Both the position numbers and the translations under genes were made by a program. From assembly GCA_030527015.1 (NCBI GenBank), contig JAUNBR010000007.1:1-64000 (forward strand): 64,000 bases of DNA, in the 5' to 3' direction. The notes under the pieces are model-generated. The model was not told the DNA's origin, did no database searches, and was given only the letters and a program-made list of their open reading frames with translations. This stretch comes from Planctomycetia bacterium (GTDB lineage Bacteria > Planctomycetota > Planctomycetia > Pirellulales > Thermoguttaceae). Positions 2,716-63,958 of this stretch are shown in pieces; position 1 is the first letter of the stretch, and the number at the start of each line of letters is the position of its first letter.

Positions 2716-5700
2716 TTATTTTTCCACTTCTCCGATCGTGAAGGTTCCGTCCACGTTATCCAGCTGAAACATCAGAACCTTTCGCGTCTGAGTCGGACGC
2801 CCCCAGTCCGTGTAAACTTCGGCCTGAACCGTTACCGGTCCCAAAAGTTCCACCGACTGACTGCCATAATAATGCGCCTGGATCAGATATTTTCCAGACA
2901 TTCCTGTTTTAATCAGATACTCTTCCGGACCATATCCCTGTGTAAAATCTCGGGAAATCATTCCGCCGATCGTGGAAAGATTATGCTGATAATTCACTTT
3001 TTCGTCCGAGGGTTCCGTCACCCACAGATCGATATCCGTGTTATCCGCATCCCACTCCATGACGATTCGAAAGTCCAGATCCATTTTCTTCACCAGCCGT
3101 TCATCCACGGAAAGTTCCTTCACGCCAGCCTCCTGTAAACGTGGGATTACCAGCACGTTCATTTCATCCAGCGCGAAAAGTTCAATTTCTGAAAATCGCT
3201 CGTCCCAGGGATTTAATACCACTTCTTTCAGCAGTTCGAGCGCTTCCAGAAGTGAGTTTTTCACGCTCTGATCCGTGGCGGGCTTTCCTTCCGTGGAAAG
3301 AATCAGAGCCAGCGCCAAATCACGATAAGAATGCGGTTCCTCTGCACGCATCCGTTTTATCCGACGAAAAACGTCCACCGCCAGGGCCGGTTCATTCATC
3401 TGCATCAGACGCCGAGCAAGAATCCGAAGAAGAGGCACGTTTTCCAGTTCCAGCTCTGCGAGATTACTGATCACGCGCACCGCTAAATCATGTTTCCCCA
3501 TTTTCTCCAGTAAAGTGGCGCACTCCATGAAAAATCGAGAATCTTCCGCGAAATCTTTCCGAAACTTCAGATACTCTGCATACGCTTTTTCTGCACCTGC
3601 CGCTTTCATCGCGTCCAGATACTCACGCGCCACTTCCTGTTCACGTACCACAGATTTCTTCATCACCATGCCAAATTCTGACACAGCAGACTCACTATCC
3701 TCCACGATAATTTCCTCGTACTGCTGCTGCTCTATAATACCTTCCTCATCTTCCGCTTCCATGACGGGAACCGGTATTTCCTGTGGGGAATTCCCTTCCG
3801 CGTCATTTTCCATTCTTCCAGCGAAACCTGAGGAGGCCGCCTCGGGTAAATGAGGCACCCCGGTTCCTTCATCACCACCAAAAAAGTCACTCGAGTCGCC
3901 CGCTTCTTCCGCATCTTCTTCAGTACTTTTATATTTAAAATCTTTCGGATATTTAAACTCCGTACTCCACCACGTGACTCGGTTCTCCCACATGGCCAGC
4001 ACCTCTTCCATTTTCGAAAGGCGCGACTCGGCCTGCTGCTTTTCCACCGTATCCATTCGGCGAAGATATTCATCCCGCATTTCCGGCAAAGATTCCGGAG
4101 GACAAATTTCGTAGTCCAGGTACTGCTGCAGAGAATCCAGCACCAGCAGAGAAGTTTCCGGAGTCACCAGTCCGAATTCTTTTCCCAGCGATTCTATTTT
4201 CTCTCGATTCTCTTCCGGAAAAATCACCAGTTCCGCAAGTTTCGTCTGCGCGTACACTCTTTCCGCCAGCCGAGAATTTCCTGTTTCCGCCGTCAGCTCA
4301 TATTTTTGGACATGACACACATTTCCATCCACGGAATATGTTAATACCAGTTCACCGGTGGGTGCAGTCATTCTGCCAGCGACAATAATATCTCCCATCA
4401 CCGGACGATCCAGTTTCGGAAATGTTTCATCCAGAAGAATATTCGTCCCCTCTATTTTTGAAAGAATGACAGGCCGCCCATTCATCTCCGCGACGATTTT
4501 TTCCGGCGTAATTTTATTCAGGTGAAAATAACTCCCTCCGTTTAAAATCGCCATTTCACGTAAACGTGGTGTGTCCACCTGACTTCCAGAAGCGAAAACA
4601 TGAAGTGGGCACCGTGCTTCAGACACTTTTCCGCATTTTTGATTACCAAAATTCCAGATTCCATCCGTAAACAAAAATGCCCGTGAAGATGCCGTGTTCC
4701 CCGTATTTTCACAGGAAGAAAATTTGATCGCTCCCGGTGCAGTTCCTCCGTCATACGGAAGTTCTTTAAGGGTCTGAATCAGCTTTTCGACATCCGCCGC
4801 TCGGCTCTCTTTCCCCATAATAAATCGCTGGGCAGGACACGCCACATTCCGAAACACGACGAGATCCAAAGAAATTTCACTCGCGGAACATGTCTTCAAA
4901 AAATATTCGAGAAATTCATATTCTTTCGTAAAATCCTTATCCGCACGAGATCCGGACGCATCCCAAAAAACGCTCAGTTCCATTTTTTCTTGCAGGCCTT
5001 CCATGCGAATCTCCTGCTTCTGCACTCCAGGCACCTCTTCAAAATTCGGACATTTCGCCTGAAGTGCAAAATAAATTTTCTCATTTCCAAAACGTACTTT
5101 TTCCTCGTTTCCAGAGTATGATGAAACCAAAATATTCCGCGCAAGAGAATCTGAATTTTCTTTTCGCGGAAGTAAAATTACCAGATCATCATTCGGCAAA
5201 AAGTTCTTCCGCTGTGTTTCCGCCACGTAACTTTCGCGCCAGGTAAACGTCAGATCCTGCAGTGCACCTTTCGCCACCTCCGGTGGGCATTCCGGTTTAA
5301 TTACCTCCAGACGCAGACGAAAATCTTCCACCGCCGACGCGAATTTCAGAGGTAAACGAAACCTCTGTTCATTCGTCCGAGGATCTGTCTCCAGGAACGT
5401 AATATACTTTACCCGAATCGTCCGCGTCCCTCCGGCAGGAAGCGGAAACACCCGTGTTTTAAAGCTGTTTCCACCACTCCATTCCACCAGACCAGGATCT
5501 ATTTTTTGACGCACCACTTTCTCATACGTGACCCGTGCACGTTCTTTTGTCACCGCCACGCCATCTATCATTTCACCGTCCACGTCCAGAGCATACCCAT
5601 CCACCGTCACTCCTTCAGGCAGCGGAAAGTACAGATTTCCCGCCAAATCCCGTTCCGTCTGATTACGAAAAATCATCGTAGCCACAACTTCCGCCGCGAA

Positions 5701-33242: not shown

Positions 33243-35429
33243 ATGTTTTACCGATTTTTTGTTATAAGTCTCGGAATATTATCCGGGACACTCATTTACT
33301 CTCAGGAAAAGGTTTCCGTATGGGATGCTTCGATAAATGATATTCCTGCGGCGAATATTCCGATGAATGTTCCCTCTCATATCTCCACGAATCTTCCTGT
33401 GGACGGTATTTCGGTAATAGAGAATCCGGCATGGGATTCCACGACTGAATATATTCCTGGCATGCAAAATTCTCCACAACAAAAATTACGTCAGATTTTA
33501 CCATCTTCGGAAAATTCAGATTTTGTTTCACCGGCTCAAAAGGAAATTCGTCCACAGGCAGAAACTCCTCGTCCACAGACGGCCCGATTTCATCTGGAAT
33601 CGAAACGGCAGAAAGATTCTGCCCAGCATGAGGTTTCGGGAACACGGCGAAGTAAGTTACCGGATATGGAAATTACATCTTTAAATATTAAAGGAATGAC
33701 ACTTCATGAATTTTCCCGATTATTGAGTCAGGGGGCGGGCTGGAAAGTCGTCGTCAGTCGTGAAGCAGGGGACCTGGAAATACGAACATATTTTGAAAAT
33801 ATCCGTGGTGAGGACGCGATTCGCGCAATTTGTCAGGCGAATAATTTATGGTATCATCTGGATGAAGATACAGGAATTATTAGCATCATGACGGTGGACG
33901 AGTACCGCCGCGGCATTCTTTCTCATTCACAAGATACGGTGAAGGTGGTAACTCTCATTTATCCAGACGCCAGAGCGGTGGGAGACGCGATTCAGCGGCT
34001 TTTCAAAAATCGGGTGGTCTGGACGCCGCCGGATGATTATCTGGATGATCCGATCGAGGATATCGAGAGGGCTTTTGAACGGATGGAAAGCATAAATGAT
34101 CAGGTACAAGATTTACAGCAGAGTTTAGGAAATTCCAGACGCTCGAGTAGCTCCAGCTCCAGTTCCAGCTCGGGCAGAAGTTCCTCACGGCGCAGCCAGC
34201 AGAATCAGGACCCTCTGGCAGAGAATCGTGTCGTGGAAGATATTCAGCAGGATGTGGCGGAAGAGAAACTCATCGCGCAGCTGACGGGTGCGGCAGAAGT
34301 TCAGGGCGGAAATTTAGGTAATCCGGGAATCGTGTATATCTCCGCTTTTCGTGGAAGTAATGATCTGCTGCTGCGTTCTTCTGATCCGAAGGCTGTGGAT
34401 GAAGTAATGAAAGTAATTGCTCAGCTGGATAAACCAAAACCTCAGGTACTGCTGGAAGTGAAGGTTCTGGATCTGACACTCAGCGACGATGAATCTTATG
34501 GTTTCGACTGGCTTTTTAATAAAGGTGATGCTTCCGGTGGGCGTTCCACGGGAATAAATCAGAGCACACTGGGAAGTAACTTCGGGACCATGGAAAAACC
34601 TGTGGCCGGTTCTCTGGTTCCACAGGGAAATGGTCTGGACCCGAAAGCCCTGGTGCTGCAGGTCGTGACGGATGAAATCGCCGCAAGAATTCAGGCCATG
34701 CAGGAAAGCGGCAGGGCAGTCGCTCTGGCCACTCCGAATTTATGTGTCGCGGACGGAGAGGCATCTCGTATTTTCGTCGGAACCGAGACGACCGTTTTAA
34801 CCTCCGTCTCCGTCAGCAGAAGTACGTACTCGGGCACGACCACGACTTCTGATACCGTTTACTCCCCTGAAACCGAGCGATTAAATGTCGGTACGACGCT
34901 CCTAATTACGCCTCGGATTCATGCCGACAGAACCACTACCATTCGGATCGCGCAGGAAGAATCCCAGGTGGGTGATTCTCAGACCATTACTTATGGTCCG
35001 GAAAGTTTCACTTCCCGAGATATAAAAACCAGAACGGTCACCACCACCGTAATCGCAGCGGACGGACAGATCAGCGCGATCGGCGGCCTGATTCGTGAAG
35101 AGGCAGAAGACCAGGAAGTCGGTGTTCCCGGCCTGATGAAAGTCCCGTATTTAGGTACGCTCTTTAAAACTTCCTTTAAAAATCGTGAACGGCATGAACT
35201 GCTGGTACTGATTCGCCCACACATCCTTCTGGCTCCCGGTGAGGCGGAACCCGTCTCGCAGGATATGCTGGAACGATTAAGTACGCACCCCAGCGCCCAT
35301 GGACAGATTCCCTCCATGAGAATCGGTGAAGGCGTCAGCGTGGTGAATGAACGGATTTATGACATTCCTCGGCAGGCTTTTAAAGCTGTAAAATGTCAGG
35401 CTCAGCCCAGCTCCACGAAAGGATTTTAG
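33243..35429 (+). CDS. Secretin (PilQ/GspD family) outer-membrane pore
   Basis: A 728-residue secretin forming the outer-membrane channel of a type IV pilus or type II secretion machine. The signal peptide is residues 1-20. An N0/STN-like domain follows at about 145-225 (NIKGMTLHEFSRLL), then an N1-type domain at about 230-290. A Ser/Arg-rich linker at 299-318 contains ten Ser in a row. The secretin core is about 400-690 (ATPNLCVADGEASRI, VGTTLLITPRI, GGLIREEAEDQEVGVPGL, ELLVLIRPHIL). GGAGG precedes the ATG. It lies 33 bases after the PilP-like gene and 3 bases before the lipoprotein gene. Confidence 0.94.
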   Translation: MFYRFFVISLGILSGTLIYSQEKVSVWDASINDIPAANIPMNVPSHISTNLPVDGISVIENPAWDSTTEYIPGMQNSPQQKLRQILPSSENSDFVSPAQKEIRPQAETPRPQTARFHLESKRQKDSAQHEVSGTRRSKLPDMEITSLNIKGMTLHEFSRLLSQGAGWKVVVSREAGDLEIRTYFENIRGEDAIRAICQANNLWYHLDEDTGIISIMTVDEYRRGILSHSQDTVKVVTLIYPDARAVGDAIQRLFKNRVVWTPPDDYLDDPIEDIERAFERMESINDQVQDLQQSLGNSRRSSSSSSSSSSGRSSSRRSQQNQDPLAENRVVEDIQQDVAEEKLIAQLTGAAEVQGGNLGNPGIVYISAFRGSNDLLLRSSDPKAVDEVMKVIAQLDKPKPQVLLEVKVLDLTLSDDESYGFDWLFNKGDASGGRSTGINQSTLGSNFGTMEKPVAGSLVPQGNGLDPKALVLQVVTDEIAARIQAMQESGRAVALATPNLCVADGEASRIFVGTETTVLTSVSVSRSTYSGTTTTSDTVYSPETERLNVGTTLLITPRIHADRTTTIRIAQEESQVGDSQTITYGPESFTSRDIKTRTVTTTVIAADGQISAIGGLIREEAEDQEVGVPGLMKVPYLGTLFKTSFKNRERHELLVLIRPHILLAPGEAEPVSQDMLERLSTHPSAHGQIPSMRIGEGVSVVNERIYDIPRQAFKAVKCQAQPSSTKGF

Positions 35430-57487: not shown

Positions 57488-59230
57488 ATGAGTGACGACT
57501 GCAAGCAAAATTTATCTCAAAACAGTTTGGACGCATTCGGCAATTATGAAAATTCCGATTACGAAGTGGACACTGAGCTTCAGGAATTGTCACAAGGAAT
57601 GCTTTTGGCGGGAAAATATTGGCTGGAAAACCAGGTCGGACAGGGCGGAATGGGCGTGGTCTGGAAGGCATTCGACCTGATTGGATCGCGGCGGAACGTC
57701 GTGCTGAAGTTTATGCCCAAGGAAATTCGCCATAACGAAGATGCGATGGATCAGGTGAAGAAGACGTTCAAAAAGATTCGTCGATTTCATCATTCGAATA
57801 TTTGCCCAGTTTACGCGCTGGAAAAGGATGGGAAATTTGGTTATTACGTCGTGATGAAATGGCTGAAAGGCTTGTCGCTGGCCGAGTTCCGGGAGCAGAA
57901 AAAATTTCGTCAGGAAATGATTTTTCCGATCTTAAAACCTCTGGCCGAAGCGCTGGATTACGCACACACGCAGGGAGTGATTCACCACGGCGTGAATCCG
58001 GGCAACATATTTCTTCCGAAGTCCGAAGACGGGACAATTCGCACTGTGCAGCTGAGCGATTTTAATCTTGCGGCGGAGATTCTCCAGGCGGACACGGCGT
58101 TTCACACTTTTTTGCAGCTCAAGACCAGCGGAAGCATGGCGTACATGCCACCGGAACAGTGGGAAGGAAACCCTCAGCAGCAAGACGCGCGCACCGACCA
58201 GTACGCCCTGGCAGCCGTGGCGTACGAGCTTTATTCCGGCCACCTTCCCTTCATGGCGGCGAACCCCGAAATGCTGCGCCTGTGCATTTTACAAGACCCG
58301 CCGGAAGAAATCATAAGCGCCCCGGCACACGTTAATTCCGCACTGCAAAAGGCTTTAGCGAAAGACCGTAAAGACCGATTCCCGTCGTGCATGGCGTTTA
58401 TGAACGCGCTTTCCGATCCGACATTTTCCGTGTCCTTACCGACTCCCGTGAAGACGGATGTGGAGATGAAAAAGCTTCGCGAGGACGCGGAGCGGCGGGC
58501 GCAGGAAAAATTGGAAGCAGAGCGGAGGCCATCCGAAGATCCGGAACCCGGCGTGCGCATGGTGAAAACGATAAACGGCGTGGAGTTCGCGTTTCGCTGG
58601 TGCCCGGCGGGAGAATTTATGATGGGCAGTCCGTCGTCGGAAGCTGGGCGAGATAACGACGAAACGCAGCACCGCGTGACGCTCACAAAAGGTTTCTGGA
58701 TGCTGGAAACACAAGTGACGCAAGAAATGTGGCAAAGCGTGATGGGAAATAATCCGAGTCGTTTTAAAGGGAACAAGCTGCCTGTGGAGTGTGTAAGCTT
58801 GGACGACTGCCAGGAATTTTGCCAGAAGCTGCGTAACCTCGGCTTAAACATTCAGCTTCCCACGGAAGCGCAGTGGGAGTATGCGTGTCGCGCGGGCACG
58901 ACAGGAGCATACGCAGGAGACTTGGATTCCATGGCATGGTACGATTCCAATTCAGACTCGACGACCCACGCAGTGGGGCAGAAAAACCCGAACGCCTGGG
59001 GCTTATACGACATGCACGGAAACGTCTGGGAGTGGTGTGCCGACTGGAAAGGAAGTTATATAATCGGTTCCGTCACCGACCCGACGGGACCTGCATTTGG
59101 CTCGTACCGAGTGATTCGTGGCGGAAACTGGGGCATCATCGCGAGGTACTGTCGTTCGGCGGTTCGGGGCCGCGATATACCGACGTACCGCGGCGATTTC
59201 CTCGGTTTCCGCCCGGTTCTCGTCCCTTAG
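57488..59230 (+). CDS. Predicted pseudokinase fused to a formylglycine-generating-enzyme-type domain
   Basis: A 580-residue protein. Residues about 40-320 have the Ser/Thr kinase (PknB-like) fold: a glycine loop GQGGMG at 51-56, Lys74 in VVLKFMPKE, and MAYMPPEQW. But the catalytic loop HRDxKPxN reads HHGVNPGN (166-173), so the Asp and Lys are absent, and DFG reads DFN at 191-193. Catalysis is unlikely. A charged helix follows at about 325-355, and the C-terminal region (about 358-580) is an FGE-sulfatase/SUMF1-type domain (GEFMMGSPSSE, LPTEAQWEYACRAG, HGNVWEWCADW, RGGNW). GGAGA precedes the ATG. Codon use is closer to that of the cas genes than to the older neighbours. Confidence 0.88.
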   Translation: MSDDCKQNLSQNSLDAFGNYENSDYEVDTELQELSQGMLLAGKYWLENQVGQGGMGVVWKAFDLIGSRRNVVLKFMPKEIRHNEDAMDQVKKTFKKIRRFHHSNICPVYALEKDGKFGYYVVMKWLKGLSLAEFREQKKFRQEMIFPILKPLAEALDYAHTQGVIHHGVNPGNIFLPKSEDGTIRTVQLSDFNLAAEILQADTAFHTFLQLKTSGSMAYMPPEQWEGNPQQQDARTDQYALAAVAYELYSGHLPFMAANPEMLRLCILQDPPEEIISAPAHVNSALQKALAKDRKDRFPSCMAFMNALSDPTFSVSLPTPVKTDVEMKKLREDAERRAQEKLEAERRPSEDPEPGVRMVKTINGVEFAFRWCPAGEFMMGSPSSEAGRDNDETQHRVTLTKGFWMLETQVTQEMWQSVMGNNPSRFKGNKLPVECVSLDDCQEFCQKLRNLGLNIQLPTEAQWEYACRAGTTGAYAGDLDSMAWYDSNSDSTTHAVGQKNPNAWGLYDMHGNVWEWCADWKGSYIIGSVTDPTGPAFGSYRVIRGGNWGIIARYCRSAVRGRDIPTYRGDFLGFRPVLVP

Positions 59231-59630: not shown

Positions 59631-59659
59631 TTGACTTTTCCTCTGCTGGGCGTCATACT
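59631..59659 (+). promoter_or_regulatory. Sigma-70-type promoter of the cas operon
   Basis: TTGACT, 17 bases, CATACT, ending 70 bases before the cas3 start codon. It is one of the best promoter matches in the window. Confidence 0.6.
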
Positions 59660-59684
59660 GAAATTATCGATAGTCCCTAGGACG

Positions 59685-59728: not shown

Positions 59729-62254
59729 ATGATTTTACCGGTAAAGGAATGCCTTGCGAAAACTAAAAAGATAGACGGAACACTCGAAAAAGGGTGCGAC
59801 GTTTCGACACACCTACGGGCCACGTTTCGTGTCGGGCTGGCCATATTGAACTTTCTGCGGGGAACGCGTGCTGGGGATTTATTCGAAACCAGAGACCTGC
59901 TTGGGGCGCTCTTGCACGACATCGGAAAGCTGACGCCCGCGTTTCAGGATAAGATTTATGGTGCGCTGGGAATGGCGCTGAATTTGGTGGGGGTGGAGGT
60001 ACAGGATGAAAATCATGCCGCCTCTTCGCGGACGATTTTGAAGGGTTGGAAATTGTACCATCTCGCGGATCTGGCGGGAGATCATCATGGTTGGGTTTGC
60101 AAGGGAAAATCTTCTGGCGCACATCTGGGGCAGAGCGGTTGGAAGGAAAACCAGCGTGCTGTGGCGGAGGCACTGTGTCGAGAATTTGGGCTGGAGCTGG
60201 AGGATGTTCCGTACAAGTGGGGTTCCCCGAAGTTTCGGCTGGTGCAGGGGCTGACGTCGCTGGCGGACTGGCTCAGTTCCGGGATGGATCTGGGAGCGGA
60301 TGAGGAGCTTTCGGACGAGAAAATCCAGTCGGTGATAAGCGGTGCAGGATTCGTGCCATTTCGGGTGAATGAGGGACTGTCGTTCGAGGAGATTTTCGGG
60401 TTCCCGCCGTTTGCGGTGCAGTCGCTCATGGCGGAAAAGATGGTACCGGGCGGTGTGTATGTGCTGGAAACTGAGATGGGCGGCGGAAAGACGGAAGCGG
60501 CGCTGTATCTGGCGTATCGGTTGCTGGAAAAGGAACGGCACAACGGAATTTACTTCGCGTTGCCGACGCAGCTGACCTCCGACAAAATCCACGAGCGGTT
60601 TAAGGAATTCCTGAAGAAGATCCTTCCCGAGCAGGAATCCCGCCGGGCGCTTTTGCTTCATGGTCAGGCGTGGCTGCGGAACGAATTGTATAGTTCTGAT
60701 GGCGAGGAAATGGAGCAGCGAGCAGCCGACCGCGACGCGTGGTTCGATCACCGCAAGCGGGGGCTTTTGGCTCCGTTTGCCGTCGGAACGGTGGATCAGA
60801 TTTTGATGGCGGTCATTAATGTGCGGTACAATTTCATGCGTGCGTTCGGCGCGGCAGGAAAGGTGGTTATTCTTGACGAAATCCACAGTTACGACGCGTA
60901 CACCGGGACGCTGATTCAGGCGTTGATCAAAATGCTGCGGGAAATGAACTGCACCGTGATTCTCCTCAGCGCGACGCTCACTCGCCAGACACGTAACGAC
61001 TTATTGGGAAATTCGGACGGAACGCCAAATCCGTTGGAATCGTGCTATCCGCTTTTGAGTTATCACGATGGAGAAGCGGTGCAATTTGAGAAGACGGAAC
61101 CGCCTCAGAGCAAAACGGTGTCGATTGTTTCGAGCCGGAAAGTGGAGGATTCTATTGACCGTGCGTTGGAAAAAGCGGAAAATGGCGAGTGTGTTCTCTG
61201 GATCGAAAACACGGTGCGCGACGCACAGAATGTGTTTCGCATTCTCCGCGCACGAGCCGAGAAAAATATCCAGGTCGGGCTGATTCACTCCCGATTTCCC
61301 AGTTTCGTTCGTTCTCGACAGGAGAAAAAATGGACGGAGCTTTACGGGAAAAACGTGACGGCCGAAACGCGCGCCGGGGGGAAGATTCTCATCGGCACGC
61401 AGGTTCTGGAACAGTCGATCGACATCGACGCGGACTATCTCATCACCCGACTCTGTCCGACGGACATGCTCCTTCAGCGCATCGGGCGGCTCTGGCGGCA
61501 CCGGCGTCTCGACGCTCTTCGGCCTTCCACGGCCCGGTGTGTGGTGGAAATTTTGAACGAGGAGCCATATGCGAATCGCCCAGAATATAAAAAGCCCCCG
61601 CATGAAAAGCATTACGTCTATGCACGGTACGTTCTGGCGCGTTCGCAGGAAGTGTGGGAAAGCCGATCGGAAATTGTTTTGCCCCGCGACATGCGGACGC
61701 TGCTGGAGGAGACGTACACCGAGCGAGAGGAAACGGGATATTATAAGGGATTGAAGGAGGAACTGGAAAAGCGAAAGGATGTGTTGGAAGGGCTTGCCCG
61801 TTTGAGTCAGGGAGATGCAGAACGCACCAGGAAAGACGAGGAAGGTCTGGGCACCCGTTACAGTGAAGAAGCCACGGTGGAGCTGCTGCTTCTGGAAGAT
61901 TGCGACCGAGAAAACGGGCGATTAAAACTCCATGGCAGAGAGGGTTTCTTGACGATTCCGGGCAAAAATGCCACGCCGAGAGAGAAGTTTTGGGTTTCCC
62001 GAATCCTGACAAAACACCTGATTCGTGTGCCGGAACATGCCGCGCCGGCGTACGAATCGTTCAAGCTCGATTTTCTGAGCCATCTATTATATATTGGTCA
62101 AAATGAGGATCGCCCCATTCGCGCAGCGTTCATCGACTCCTGCGGGGGGATACTCCGGGATTTTTCCCATAACGTGGTGGAGTCGGGAAAATATAAGTTA
62201 GGATACCAAGAGAACATCGGGTATTTTTATGCAGCGGAAGAAAAACAGAAATAG
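59729..62254 (+). CDS. cas3: CRISPR-associated nuclease/helicase Cas3 (type I-E)
   Basis: Recruited by Cascade, it nicks and unwinds target DNA. It has 841 residues. The N-terminal HD nuclease has His28 in STHL, His63-Asp64 in LLHDIGKLTPAF, and the His pair at 119-120 (LAGDHHGW). The SF2 helicase part has Walker A EMGGGKTEA at 249-257, DEIH at 383-386, LLSATLT, and the arginine-finger block VLEQSIDIDADYL...QRIGRLWRH. The ATG at 59729 is preceded by AAAGGAGG. The next gene is cse1, so the system is type I-E. Codon choice (more G- and C-ending codons, many TTG and AAG) differs from the older neighbours. Confidence 0.95.
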   Translation: MILPVKECLAKTKKIDGTLEKGCDVSTHLRATFRVGLAILNFLRGTRAGDLFETRDLLGALLHDIGKLTPAFQDKIYGALGMALNLVGVEVQDENHAASSRTILKGWKLYHLADLAGDHHGWVCKGKSSGAHLGQSGWKENQRAVAEALCREFGLELEDVPYKWGSPKFRLVQGLTSLADWLSSGMDLGADEELSDEKIQSVISGAGFVPFRVNEGLSFEEIFGFPPFAVQSLMAEKMVPGGVYVLETEMGGGKTEAALYLAYRLLEKERHNGIYFALPTQLTSDKIHERFKEFLKKILPEQESRRALLLHGQAWLRNELYSSDGEEMEQRAADRDAWFDHRKRGLLAPFAVGTVDQILMAVINVRYNFMRAFGAAGKVVILDEIHSYDAYTGTLIQALIKMLREMNCTVILLSATLTRQTRNDLLGNSDGTPNPLESCYPLLSYHDGEAVQFEKTEPPQSKTVSIVSSRKVEDSIDRALEKAENGECVLWIENTVRDAQNVFRILRARAEKNIQVGLIHSRFPSFVRSRQEKKWTELYGKNVTAETRAGGKILIGTQVLEQSIDIDADYLITRLCPTDMLLQRIGRLWRHRRLDALRPSTARCVVEILNEEPYANRPEYKKPPHEKHYVYARYVLARSQEVWESRSEIVLPRDMRTLLEETYTEREETGYYKGLKEELEKRKDVLEGLARLSQGDAERTRKDEEGLGTRYSEEATVELLLLEDCDRENGRLKLHGREGFLTIPGKNATPREKFWVSRILTKHLIRVPEHAAPAYESFKLDFLSHLLYIGQNEDRPIRAAFIDSCGGILRDFSHNVVESGKYKLGYQENIGYFYAAEEKQK

Positions 62255-62345
62255 GAAAATCATTGTATCGGTTAGAAAATTTTCATGTTTGGCTTGTGTT
62301 TTCCAAAAATTTTGAGGTTATTTCCAATGAAATAGTCGTAAATCC

Positions 62346-62374
62346 GGACTTCCTCACGCGAGTGGGGATGTACA
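62346..62374 (+). ncRNA. Isolated type I-E CRISPR-repeat-like hairpin between cas3 and cse1
   Basis: A single 29-base unit resembles the type I-E repeat: the stem TCCTCAC, loop GCGA, then GTGGGGA at 62351-62368 forms seven pairs (one G-T), and it is followed by TGTACAG in place of the usual TGAACCG, which would be the 5' handle of a crRNA. There is no second copy and no spacer array. It lies 33 bases before the cse1 start, directly upstream of the ribosome binding site AAAGGAAA. It could be a crRNA-like regulatory RNA or a Cas6e-binding element in the cas mRNA. Confidence 0.6.
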
Positions 62375-62401
62375 GTTATTTTATCAGAAAGGAAATTTTA
62401 T

Positions 62402-63958
62402 ATGATTGCAGAAAAAAAATCCTTTAACCTGGTGGACGATCCGTGGATTCCCATCGCGGGAGTCGGCGAGCGGAGCCTCCGGGATGTGTTTGAGCACCCA
62501 GAGTATTTGCGTCTGGGCGGCACGGCGGTGGAGAAAGTCGTAATCCTTCGCCTTCTTCTCTGTATTGTCCATGCTTCCACGCCGATTCCCGATGAGGAAG
62601 CGTGGGCGGAGTTGACGTTGGAGCAGATTTCCCAAAACGCGCTTGCCTATCTTGAAAAGTGGCACGACCGTTTTGACCTCTATGATGAGGAACTCCCGTT
62701 TTTACAGTTCCCGCAGTTGAAGGGGAAGTGTGCGAAAGCCGGGCTGGAGGGTATTGCCTGGACGGCGGCCAGTGGAAACAAAACGCTCCTGACGCAGTGG
62801 AGCGGCATGAAGCGCTTTTCCGACGCGGAAGCGGCTCGGCTGATTCTGTGCGGCACGTCCTACGGCAGCGGAGGGAAGAAGTACGACCTTAAGGCAAAAA
62901 TTGATCCTGCGGGTCCCGACAAGGGGAAATCCGCTTCTCAGGGAACCCTGACCGGTTACAGTGGTTATCTTCATTCGTTCCTGCTTGGGGAAACGATTTT
63001 GGAGACGCTTTATCTCAATTTATTAACGGAAGAAGAGGTGAGGTCGCTGTGCCTGTTTCGCGAATCAAATCCCCTGGGGTGTCCCTTTTGGGAAGCGATG
63101 CCGACCGACGAAGGCGGTTCCAGTGCCGAGGCGTATCGTTCGACGTATCAGGGGCATTTGTTTCCGTTGAATAAGTTTTTTTGCCTTCACGAAGATTCTC
63201 TTCTAATGACCGAGGGCATTTCGTATCCCACACACAAGCAGGGGCAGTGGGACCCGGGAATCGTGCTTTTTTATGGTACAAAACCGGAAGATACCCGTGC
63301 CCTCTGGTGCGATACCGAGAAAAAGCCATGGCGGCAATTGAGTTCGCTGCTGCAATTTTTGGATGTGAACACGAACTCCACCATGCCAGCGTTTTTAATT
63401 CGTGGGCTGGACAAGATGGATCGTTCCCATGACCGAATGTTCGGAATTTGGACGGGGGGTGTGGGTGTCAACAATAATTCCGGGGAGCAGTACGTCTCCG
63501 CGAAAAAAGATTACGTCGAGTCGGAATTCACCATCCCGATGAGTTGGTATGAGGGGCGAGATGAAGTCCGTGGGGCAAGCTCTTTCCTGCGCTACAAAAA
63601 TCTTATGCAGACGTTGGACGATTACGCGTCCGTGCTTTACAGTGCGGTAAATCGTTATTTCAAGTCGCTGGACGAACAGCGCAGCGGCGACCTGGCGAAA
63701 CAGGCGGTACAGCTTTTTTGGGAGAAGATGGAACCAGCAGCGCAGGCGATTATTGATTTGAGCTTGGAGAAAGAGGAGTCCGAGGAGGTTTTGGCCGCGG
63801 AAAAAGCGTGGCAGGGTGTGGCACGTTCCTGTTACGACCAGTTTTGTCCCCATCAGACTCCGCGACAGATTCAGGCGTATGTTCAGGGCACACCGTACTT
63901 TGGGAAAAAATCTGACAAGACAAAACCCGTGAAGAAAGTCAAAAAGGAGAAGGTATGA
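62402..63958 (+). CDS. casA: Cascade large subunit Cse1 (Cas8e)
   Basis: Large subunit of type I-E Cascade that recognises the PAM and starts DNA unwinding. It has 518 residues. The start MIAEKKSFNLVDDPWIPI is the family signature, SLRDVFEHPEYL follows, and the GTSYGSGGKKY stretch at about 158-168 lies where the family's PAM/L1 loop is. The C-terminal four-helix bundle is about 390-518. The ATG follows AAAGGAAATTTTAT. The TGA stop overlaps the ATG of the next gene (ATGA). Confidence 0.93.
   Translation: MIAEKKSFNLVDDPWIPIAGVGERSLRDVFEHPEYLRLGGTAVEKVVILRLLLCIVHASTPIPDEEAWAELTLEQISQNALAYLEKWHDRFDLYDEELPFLQFPQLKGKCAKAGLEGIAWTAASGNKTLLTQWSGMKRFSDAEAARLILCGTSYGSGGKKYDLKAKIDPAGPDKGKSASQGTLTGYSGYLHSFLLGETILETLYLNLLTEEEVRSLCLFRESNPLGCPFWEAMPTDEGGSSAEAYRSTYQGHLFPLNKFFCLHEDSLLMTEGISYPTHKQGQWDPGIVLFYGTKPEDTRALWCDTEKKPWRQLSSLLQFLDVNTNSTMPAFLIRGLDKMDRSHDRMFGIWTGGVGVNNNSGEQYVSAKKDYVESEFTIPMSWYEGRDEVRGASSFLRYKNLMQTLDDYASVLYSAVNRYFKSLDEQRSGDLAKQAVQLFWEKMEPAAQAIIDLSLEKEESEEVLAAEKAWQGVARSCYDQFCPHQTPRQIQAYVQGTPYFGKKSDKTKPVKKVKKEKV

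Follow-up and report, generated by a model that had tools for sequence, protein, structure and literature searches.

A probable decayed CreR-type mini-CRISPR in the cse1 leader of a planctomycete type I-E locus, with intact counterparts in sister genomes

The gap between cas3 and cse1 in the type I-E CRISPR-Cas locus of a planctomycete probably contains, at positions 62297-62374, the decayed copy of a CreR-type mini-CRISPR situated in the leader of cse1. Its regulatory function has most likely been lost, and its second repeat, psiR2, is a probable substrate of Cas6e. The window, meaning the whole stretch of DNA analyzed, comprises the first 64,000 bases of a 73,411-base contig of a draft genome (G000; 3.84-Mb assembly, about 93% complete).

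The cas locus and its relatives

A complete type I-E locus occupies the final part of the window and the next 9.4 kb of the contig. NCBIfam models recognize all of cas3, cse1, cse2, cas6e, cas7, cas5, cas1, and cas2 there, so that the type I-E assignment of the preliminary description was upheld, and together with an array the full complement of the type (cas3, cse1, cse2, cas7, cas5, cas6e, cas1e, and cas2e) is present. The same description had reported no array, which is true inside the window, but the contig continues for 9,411 bases and carries, after the cas genes and on the same strand, an array starting at contig position 68,157 with 53 intact copies of the repeat AATTTCCCCGCATGCGCGGGGGTGTTTC at a period of 61. 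The features of the gap and the two genes that border it are as follows.

59729-62254, plus strand: cas3 (TIGR01587, 193 bits)
62297-62325, plus strand: psiR1, first repeat in degraded form (TGTTTTCCAAAAATTTTGAGGTTATTTCC); handle-like tail, TTATTTCC; placed by alignment to psiR1 of G052 and G049
62326-62345, plus strand: psiS, 20-nt guide-like stretch AATGAAATAGTCGTAAATCC, aligning as an ortholog of the G049 and G052 guides
62346-62374, plus strand: psiR2, repeat-like hairpin, identified by its fold, by matches to array repeats, and by positional orthologs in G049 and G052
62351-62357 and 62362-62368, plus strand: stem of psiR2 (fold), with loop GCGA at 62358-62361 and handle-like tail at 62368-62375
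62402-63958, plus strand: cse1 (casA) (TIGR02547, 159.5 bits)

The Cse1 lineage of this locus occurs in seven of the eight genomes of the genus, and a wider search of the order returned no further members of it. Two genomes, G049 and G052, have the cas3-gap-cse1 arrangement of G000; the comparison is thus one of three genomes sharing the gap, all genomes compared are drafts (MAGs), and intact mini-CRISPR units are known from few species.

Several other features of the locus were recorded. Between the cas operons of G000 (window position 59729 onward; L001:1-4066) and G052, identity is 86% for cas3, 61% for cse1, 93% for cse2, 82% for cas6e, 59% for cas7, 87% for cas5, 82% for cas1, and 89% for cas2, which gives the operon a mosaic look, as if Cse1 and Cas7 had been exchanged or were evolving fast between near-identical neighbors. 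The array contains a tandem duplication of three successive spacer-repeat units (L001:5131-5500; 183 nt, 99% identical), and at its end (L001:7390-8098) a degenerate repeat runs into an opposite-strand open reading frame (ORF) resembling a truncated phage tape-measure protein. Directly 5' of the cas operon, at 57488-59230, lies an ORF that, judged by eye, looks like a fusion of a protein kinase with a domain of the formylglycine-generating-enzyme type. Dispersed intergenic repeats of TTTCAGAGCCGCACAAAACGGAAATTTAAA- and GTGTATCGGGTATA-like units are present in many copies in the window (27061-55253 and elsewhere) and in the genome.

Anatomy of the unit in the cas3-cse1 gap

The preliminary description had placed in the 147-base gap (62255-62401) a hairpin with a seven-pair stem and a GCGA loop, and both the coordinates and the fold proved correct. 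psiR2 forms 7 pairs, TCCTCAC/GTGGGGA, around the GCGA loop (-12.3 kcal/mol, z = -3.0), with 2 of 200 shuffles as stable; the folding of the whole gap is unremarkable (z = 0.4). When the array repeat of G049 was scanned over the 64-kb window, psiR2 was the best site (22/28; runner-up, 18/28), and over its full length psiR2 matches that repeat at 23/29 positions. The unit had also been expected to resemble the genome's own array repeat; this likeness is only moderate (17/29), the stem reading CCTCAC/GTGGGG versus CCCCGC/GCGGGG, with G-C replaced by A-U and C-G by U-G, so that pairing is kept. Because psiR2 is the best match in the window to the sister repeat and differs from its own array repeat by stem changes that preserve pairing, we regard the hairpin, on these comparisons, as real and CRISPR derived. 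By analogy with type I-E repeats, Cas6e is predicted to cut psiR2 after 62367.

In the preliminary description, psiR2 was a single repeat-like unit. Alignment has shown otherwise: a degraded second repeat lies at 62297-62325, separated from psiR2 by a 20-nt spacer-like stretch. The order and the spacing (to 1 nt) of psiR1, psiS, and psiR2 recur before cse1 in all three gap-sharing genomes, with psiR1, the 20-nt guide, and psiR2 followed by the cse1 ribosome-binding site. Pairwise alignment of the gaps gave z = 13.6 for G049 versus G052, z = 7.2 for G000 versus G052, and z = 4.5 for G000 versus G049 (0.15% of shuffles), and a multiple alignment was also made. As judged from these alignments, psiR1, psiS, and psiR2 together form a degenerate mini-CRISPR in which psiR2 is the second repeat, and the hairpin has positional orthologs before cse1 in G049 and G052, as its conservation in related genomes had been anticipated. 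The window copy may have kept two repeats around a guide: its layout is homologous to that of its relatives, but its psiR1 lacks a hairpin, the minimum free energy being 0 kcal/mol (no stable hairpin) in G000 versus -7.6 in G052 and -6.6 in G049.

The preliminary description further supposed that a solo repeat would guide over the cse1 start. This idea is not supported: the guide is upstream, at 62326-62345, and had been put on the wrong side because only psiR2, the repeat that still folds, was seen. Comparison of the 32 bases that follow psiR2 with the cas promoter, proposed in the same place, found nothing. As a candidate guide, 62376-62407 reached a best cas-promoter score of 11/17, and its one seed-rule match elsewhere, on contig C16 of G000 in a superoxide-dismutase-like gene region, was taken as chance.

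Guide-target pairs in the sister genomes and other mini-CRISPRs of the genus

That the unit belongs with CreA- or CreR-like, CRISPR-derived regulatory RNAs, as the preliminary description had suggested, is well supported by the sister gaps, which hold an intact repeat-guide-repeat unit matching a promoter on the cse1 side. In G052, the guide GTTGAAGTGGTTGTTAAACT matches the target GTTGAAGTGGTAGTTAAATA with mismatches at positions 12, 19, and 20 and a PAM of AAT, 7 nt past the -10 element of TTGATC-17-TATAAT. In G049, the guide GCTAATTTGGTCGTTGAACC matches GCTAAATTGGTTGTTGATAA with mismatches at positions 6, 12, 18, 19, and 20 and a PAM of AAC, likewise 7 nt past the -10 element, here of TTGACA-17-TAGAAT. 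Both promoter-like sites lie in the same cas3-cse1 gap as the mini-CRISPR, and the likeness between guide and target ends at the guide borders. In type I-E Cascade, every sixth base of the guide is flipped out (PMC5904413), which makes pairing dispensable at positions 6, 12, and 18; up to position 17, the guide-target pairs of the two genomes have mismatches only at the flipped-out positions 6 and 12. Scored with these rules, the match in the gap has a guide-letter permutation p of <5e-5 in G049 and 1.5e-4 in G052 (single-letter shuffles of the 20-nt guides).

About 8 of the 20 positions differ between the G049 guide and the G052 guide, and since each still fits its own target, guide and target have changed together. 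Both PAMs conform to AAY. A C or T directly follows the array repeat in 48/53 spacers of G000, 103/117 of G049, and 28/29 of G047; this is consistent with a PAM whose last base is a pyrimidine and agrees independently with AAY. CreA has been shown experimentally to act with exactly positions 1-5 and 7-11 paired and has two highly divergent repeats (PMC8501985). In both sister genomes, two degenerate repeats flank a spacer-like guide near the cas genes, and this guide matches a cas promoter by PAM and by seed (1-5, 7-11). At the level of sequence, the anatomy, the homology, the guide-target match, the PAM, and the mismatch phase are all established for these relatives. A guide-target pair was also searched for upstream of cse1 in G046 and G048, and none was found there.

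We propose that in the sister genomes the gap promoter would transcribe the mini-CRISPR together with the Cascade genes and that Cas6e would cut psiR1 and psiR2, releasing a crRNA-like RNA. Cascade carrying this RNA would recognize the guide-like site by its AAY PAM and by pairing at seed positions 1-5 and 7-11; with the bound site 7 nt downstream of the promoter -10 element, it would repress its own synthesis. The partial complementarity would permit binding without destruction.

Two further units suggest that the genus uses mini-CRISPRs of this sort. G051 has a stand-alone mini-CRISPR on another contig (L064:1498-1590; G051:C201), whose guide TGTATCGGTTACATTAACAG matches two sites upstream of cse1 (L037; permutation p = 5e-5). 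Site 1, TGTATTGGTTAAATTAAATC, has a PAM of AAT and mismatches at 6, 12, 18, 19, and 20; site 2, TGTATAGGTTATATTATAAT, has a PAM of AAC and mismatches at 6, 12, 17, 18, and 20 and lies inside the promoter-like sequence TTGACA-17-TATATT. G000 itself has a second mini-CRISPR, on contig C63 (minus strand, about 34299-34559; L080:4300-4560), in which the guide CGTTTATTTTCATTTAATTA matches CGTTTATTTTCTTTTAATTG at 18/20 positions, with a PAM of AAT and mismatches at 12 and 20 (p = 2.5e-4). The target is about 150 nt upstream of the unit, soon after a TATAAA box, with room between target and guide for a small toxin-like gene or RNA, as in CreTA. The unit is divergent to an adjacent cas12a gene broken into at least two frames (L080:4892-9000), and it may be a CreTA-like module that is located next to a type V-A remnant and is run by the type I-E Cascade. 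The C63 unit, the sole other strong repeat-like unit of G000, was also considered as a second trans mini-CRISPR aimed at cas3 and was set aside, as it has no match to the cas contig.

Further mini-CRISPR features were seen in the genus. The second-repeat stem of the G051 unit, CCTCGC/GCGGGG, has the same U-G wobble as psiR2 of the window. On contig C63 of G047 (L081, reverse strand, 4700-4850), a promoter, TTGACA-17-TACAAT, is followed by a repeat-spacer-repeat unit whose guide has a PAM-and-seed match on the opposite strand in its own leader, with a nonsignificant permutation p of 0.2 to 0.35. On contig C9 of G048 (L083:1400-1560), a promoter precedes a mini-CRISPR with two repeats and a spacer that is largely palindromic, directly in the leader of a gene whose beginning is AAA ATPase-like; a search for a target of this unit found none.

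Fate of the window copy and relation to known systems

The window guide departs from this pattern. A consensus scan found no promoter-like site in the 147-base gap of G000, and its best correspondence with a cas promoter is the second of these two features.

59631-59659, plus strand: predicted cas3 promoter, TTGACT-17-CATACT (consensus scan)
59657-59676, plus strand: best cas-promoter match to psiS, ACTGAAATTATCGATAGTCC (14/20; PAM CAT; mismatches at 2, 9, 10, 14, 15, and 17), weak and probably due to chance

If psiS guided Cascade to 59657-59676, the window unit would be a working CreR repressing the whole cas operon. The match overlaps the -10 box of the predicted cas3 promoter, a promoter-proximal placement like that of the targets in G049 and G052, and within the 81-nt promoter core it has a p of 0.005. 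This value rises to about 0.07 (0.068) for the intergenic region and to 0.67 under the type I-E rules (score, 11/17), and 2 of the 53 ordinary array spacers match the cas3 promoter region as well or better. The PAM is CAT instead of AAY, seed position 2 is mismatched, and the mismatches are off the 6/12/18 phase kept by the cas-targeting pairs and by the C63 pair. Three further 14/20 matches to psiS occur within the same 23 kb, and psiR1 has no hairpin. We consider a working CreR in G000 quite improbable. Nor did other searches yield a target: with an AAY PAM and exact pairing at positions 1-5 and 7-11, psiS has no site in the 73-kb contig or the 3.84-Mb assembly; allowing one mismatch to this rule gave 9 sites in the G000 genome versus 11 in controls; a whole-genome search gave 16 matches versus 17 in reversed controls; and comparison with the CRISPR leader and with the gap itself gave p = 0.58 to 0.86. 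Moving the frame of psiS by +1 or -1 gave no target in the contig. The window copy thus has no PAM-and-seed match to a cas promoter and fails the rules satisfied by its cas-targeting relatives and by the C63 unit. A target in trans could be absent from the assembly, which is about 93% complete.

Alternatively, psiR2 alone may matter, as a Cas6e binding or cleavage site that separates the cas3 and cse1 messages or tunes cse1 translation, the version that the preliminary description favored. psiR2 is the only part of the unit that still folds well, it lies 34 nt before the cse1 ATG (26 nt in G049, 23 nt in G052), and Cas6e is 82 to 85% identical among the three genomes. The strong hairpin with its pairing-preserving changes could also reflect selection rather than decay. 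However, this hairpin would be needed in the relatives to supply the mini-CRISPR with its 3' repeat, and its conservation thus requires no extra role, and G047, in which cas3 and cse1 are almost adjacent, manages without a psiR2-type hairpin. An exclusive role of this kind seems unlikely to us. That psiR2 is a chance hairpin or an unrelated structure, such as a weak terminator or a ribosome-site hairpin, is very improbable: short hairpins are common and the gap as a whole folds unremarkably, but no other site in the 64 kb comes near its match to the sister array repeat (22 versus 18 of 28), and its position and the flanking psiS and psiR1 are homologous in two relatives (z, 4.5 to 7.2).

The window unit is best read as a decayed or rewired CreR locus that keeps one Cas6e-type hairpin. 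Because promoter and target have disappeared from the gap, psiR1 is unfolded, and the guide has no rule-matching site, CreR function has most likely been lost in G000, where psiR2 would remain as a Cas6e substrate in the cas3-cse1 transcript. A more far-reaching and rather unlikely scheme is that in this genus the 5' leader of the Cascade mRNA contains a guide for the repression of Cascade itself and that one Cas6e cut in psiR2 both finishes the autorepressor RNA and generates the 5' terminus of the cse1 mRNA, so that repression is coupled directly to the processing of Cascade mRNA; in the window lineage, the guide would have been lost and the cut site kept as a processing element.

CreRs, cas-regulating RNAs from modulatory mini-CRISPRs, were reportedly described by Liu et al. 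in Cell Host & Microbe in 2023 (doi 10.1016/j.chom.2023.08.005). Reviews citing this work present them as RNAs made from mini-CRISPRs through which the Cas proteins of types I-B, I-E, and V-A are autorepressed, by way of limited promoter complementarity (PMC13131331, PMC12737573, PMC12948488). The units of G049 and G052 fit this kind in sequence, in that degenerate repeats surround a guide at a cas locus and this guide is complementary to a cas promoter to a limited extent, with a PAM plus seed, in a subtype (I-E) among those reported; the window copy would be their degenerate ortholog. The units of G049 and G052 differ in their position between cas3 and cse1, within the Cascade gene leader and just downstream of the targeted promoter, while the G051 unit acts, if at all, in trans and the window copy has no target that was found. 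CreA of CreTA shares the two highly divergent repeats, the seed at 1-5 and 7-11, the tolerance of mismatches at 6 and 12, and repression of its own promoter, and creTA of H. hispanica likewise sits between cas genes (PMC8501985, PMC9458426). In contrast to CreTA, no toxin RNA or gene separates the guide unit from the promoter that it would repress in G052, where target and psiR1 are about 20 nt apart and the transcript leads into cse1. Solitary repeat units (Racr) are also repeat mimics bound by Cas6, but Racr are phage-encoded inhibitors (PMC10651486), whereas the window unit, neither a single repeat nor encoded by a phage or mobile element, is part of a cas operon of the host and includes a guide and another repeat. 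An ordinary one-spacer type I-E array would have the same repeat-spacer-repeat order, but here the guide is 20 nt rather than 32 to 33 nt, the repeats are divergent, and the target is a self promoter with mismatches at flipped positions.

With these findings, the range of CreR-type autorepression, in which an RNA guides the repression of Cas proteins, would come to include a planctomycete genus. Guide and target that change together across species while the 6-nt pairing phase and the PAM are kept provide comparative evidence for function, and three orthologs in differing states within similar operons offer a test of the fate of such a regulator once its promoter is lost.
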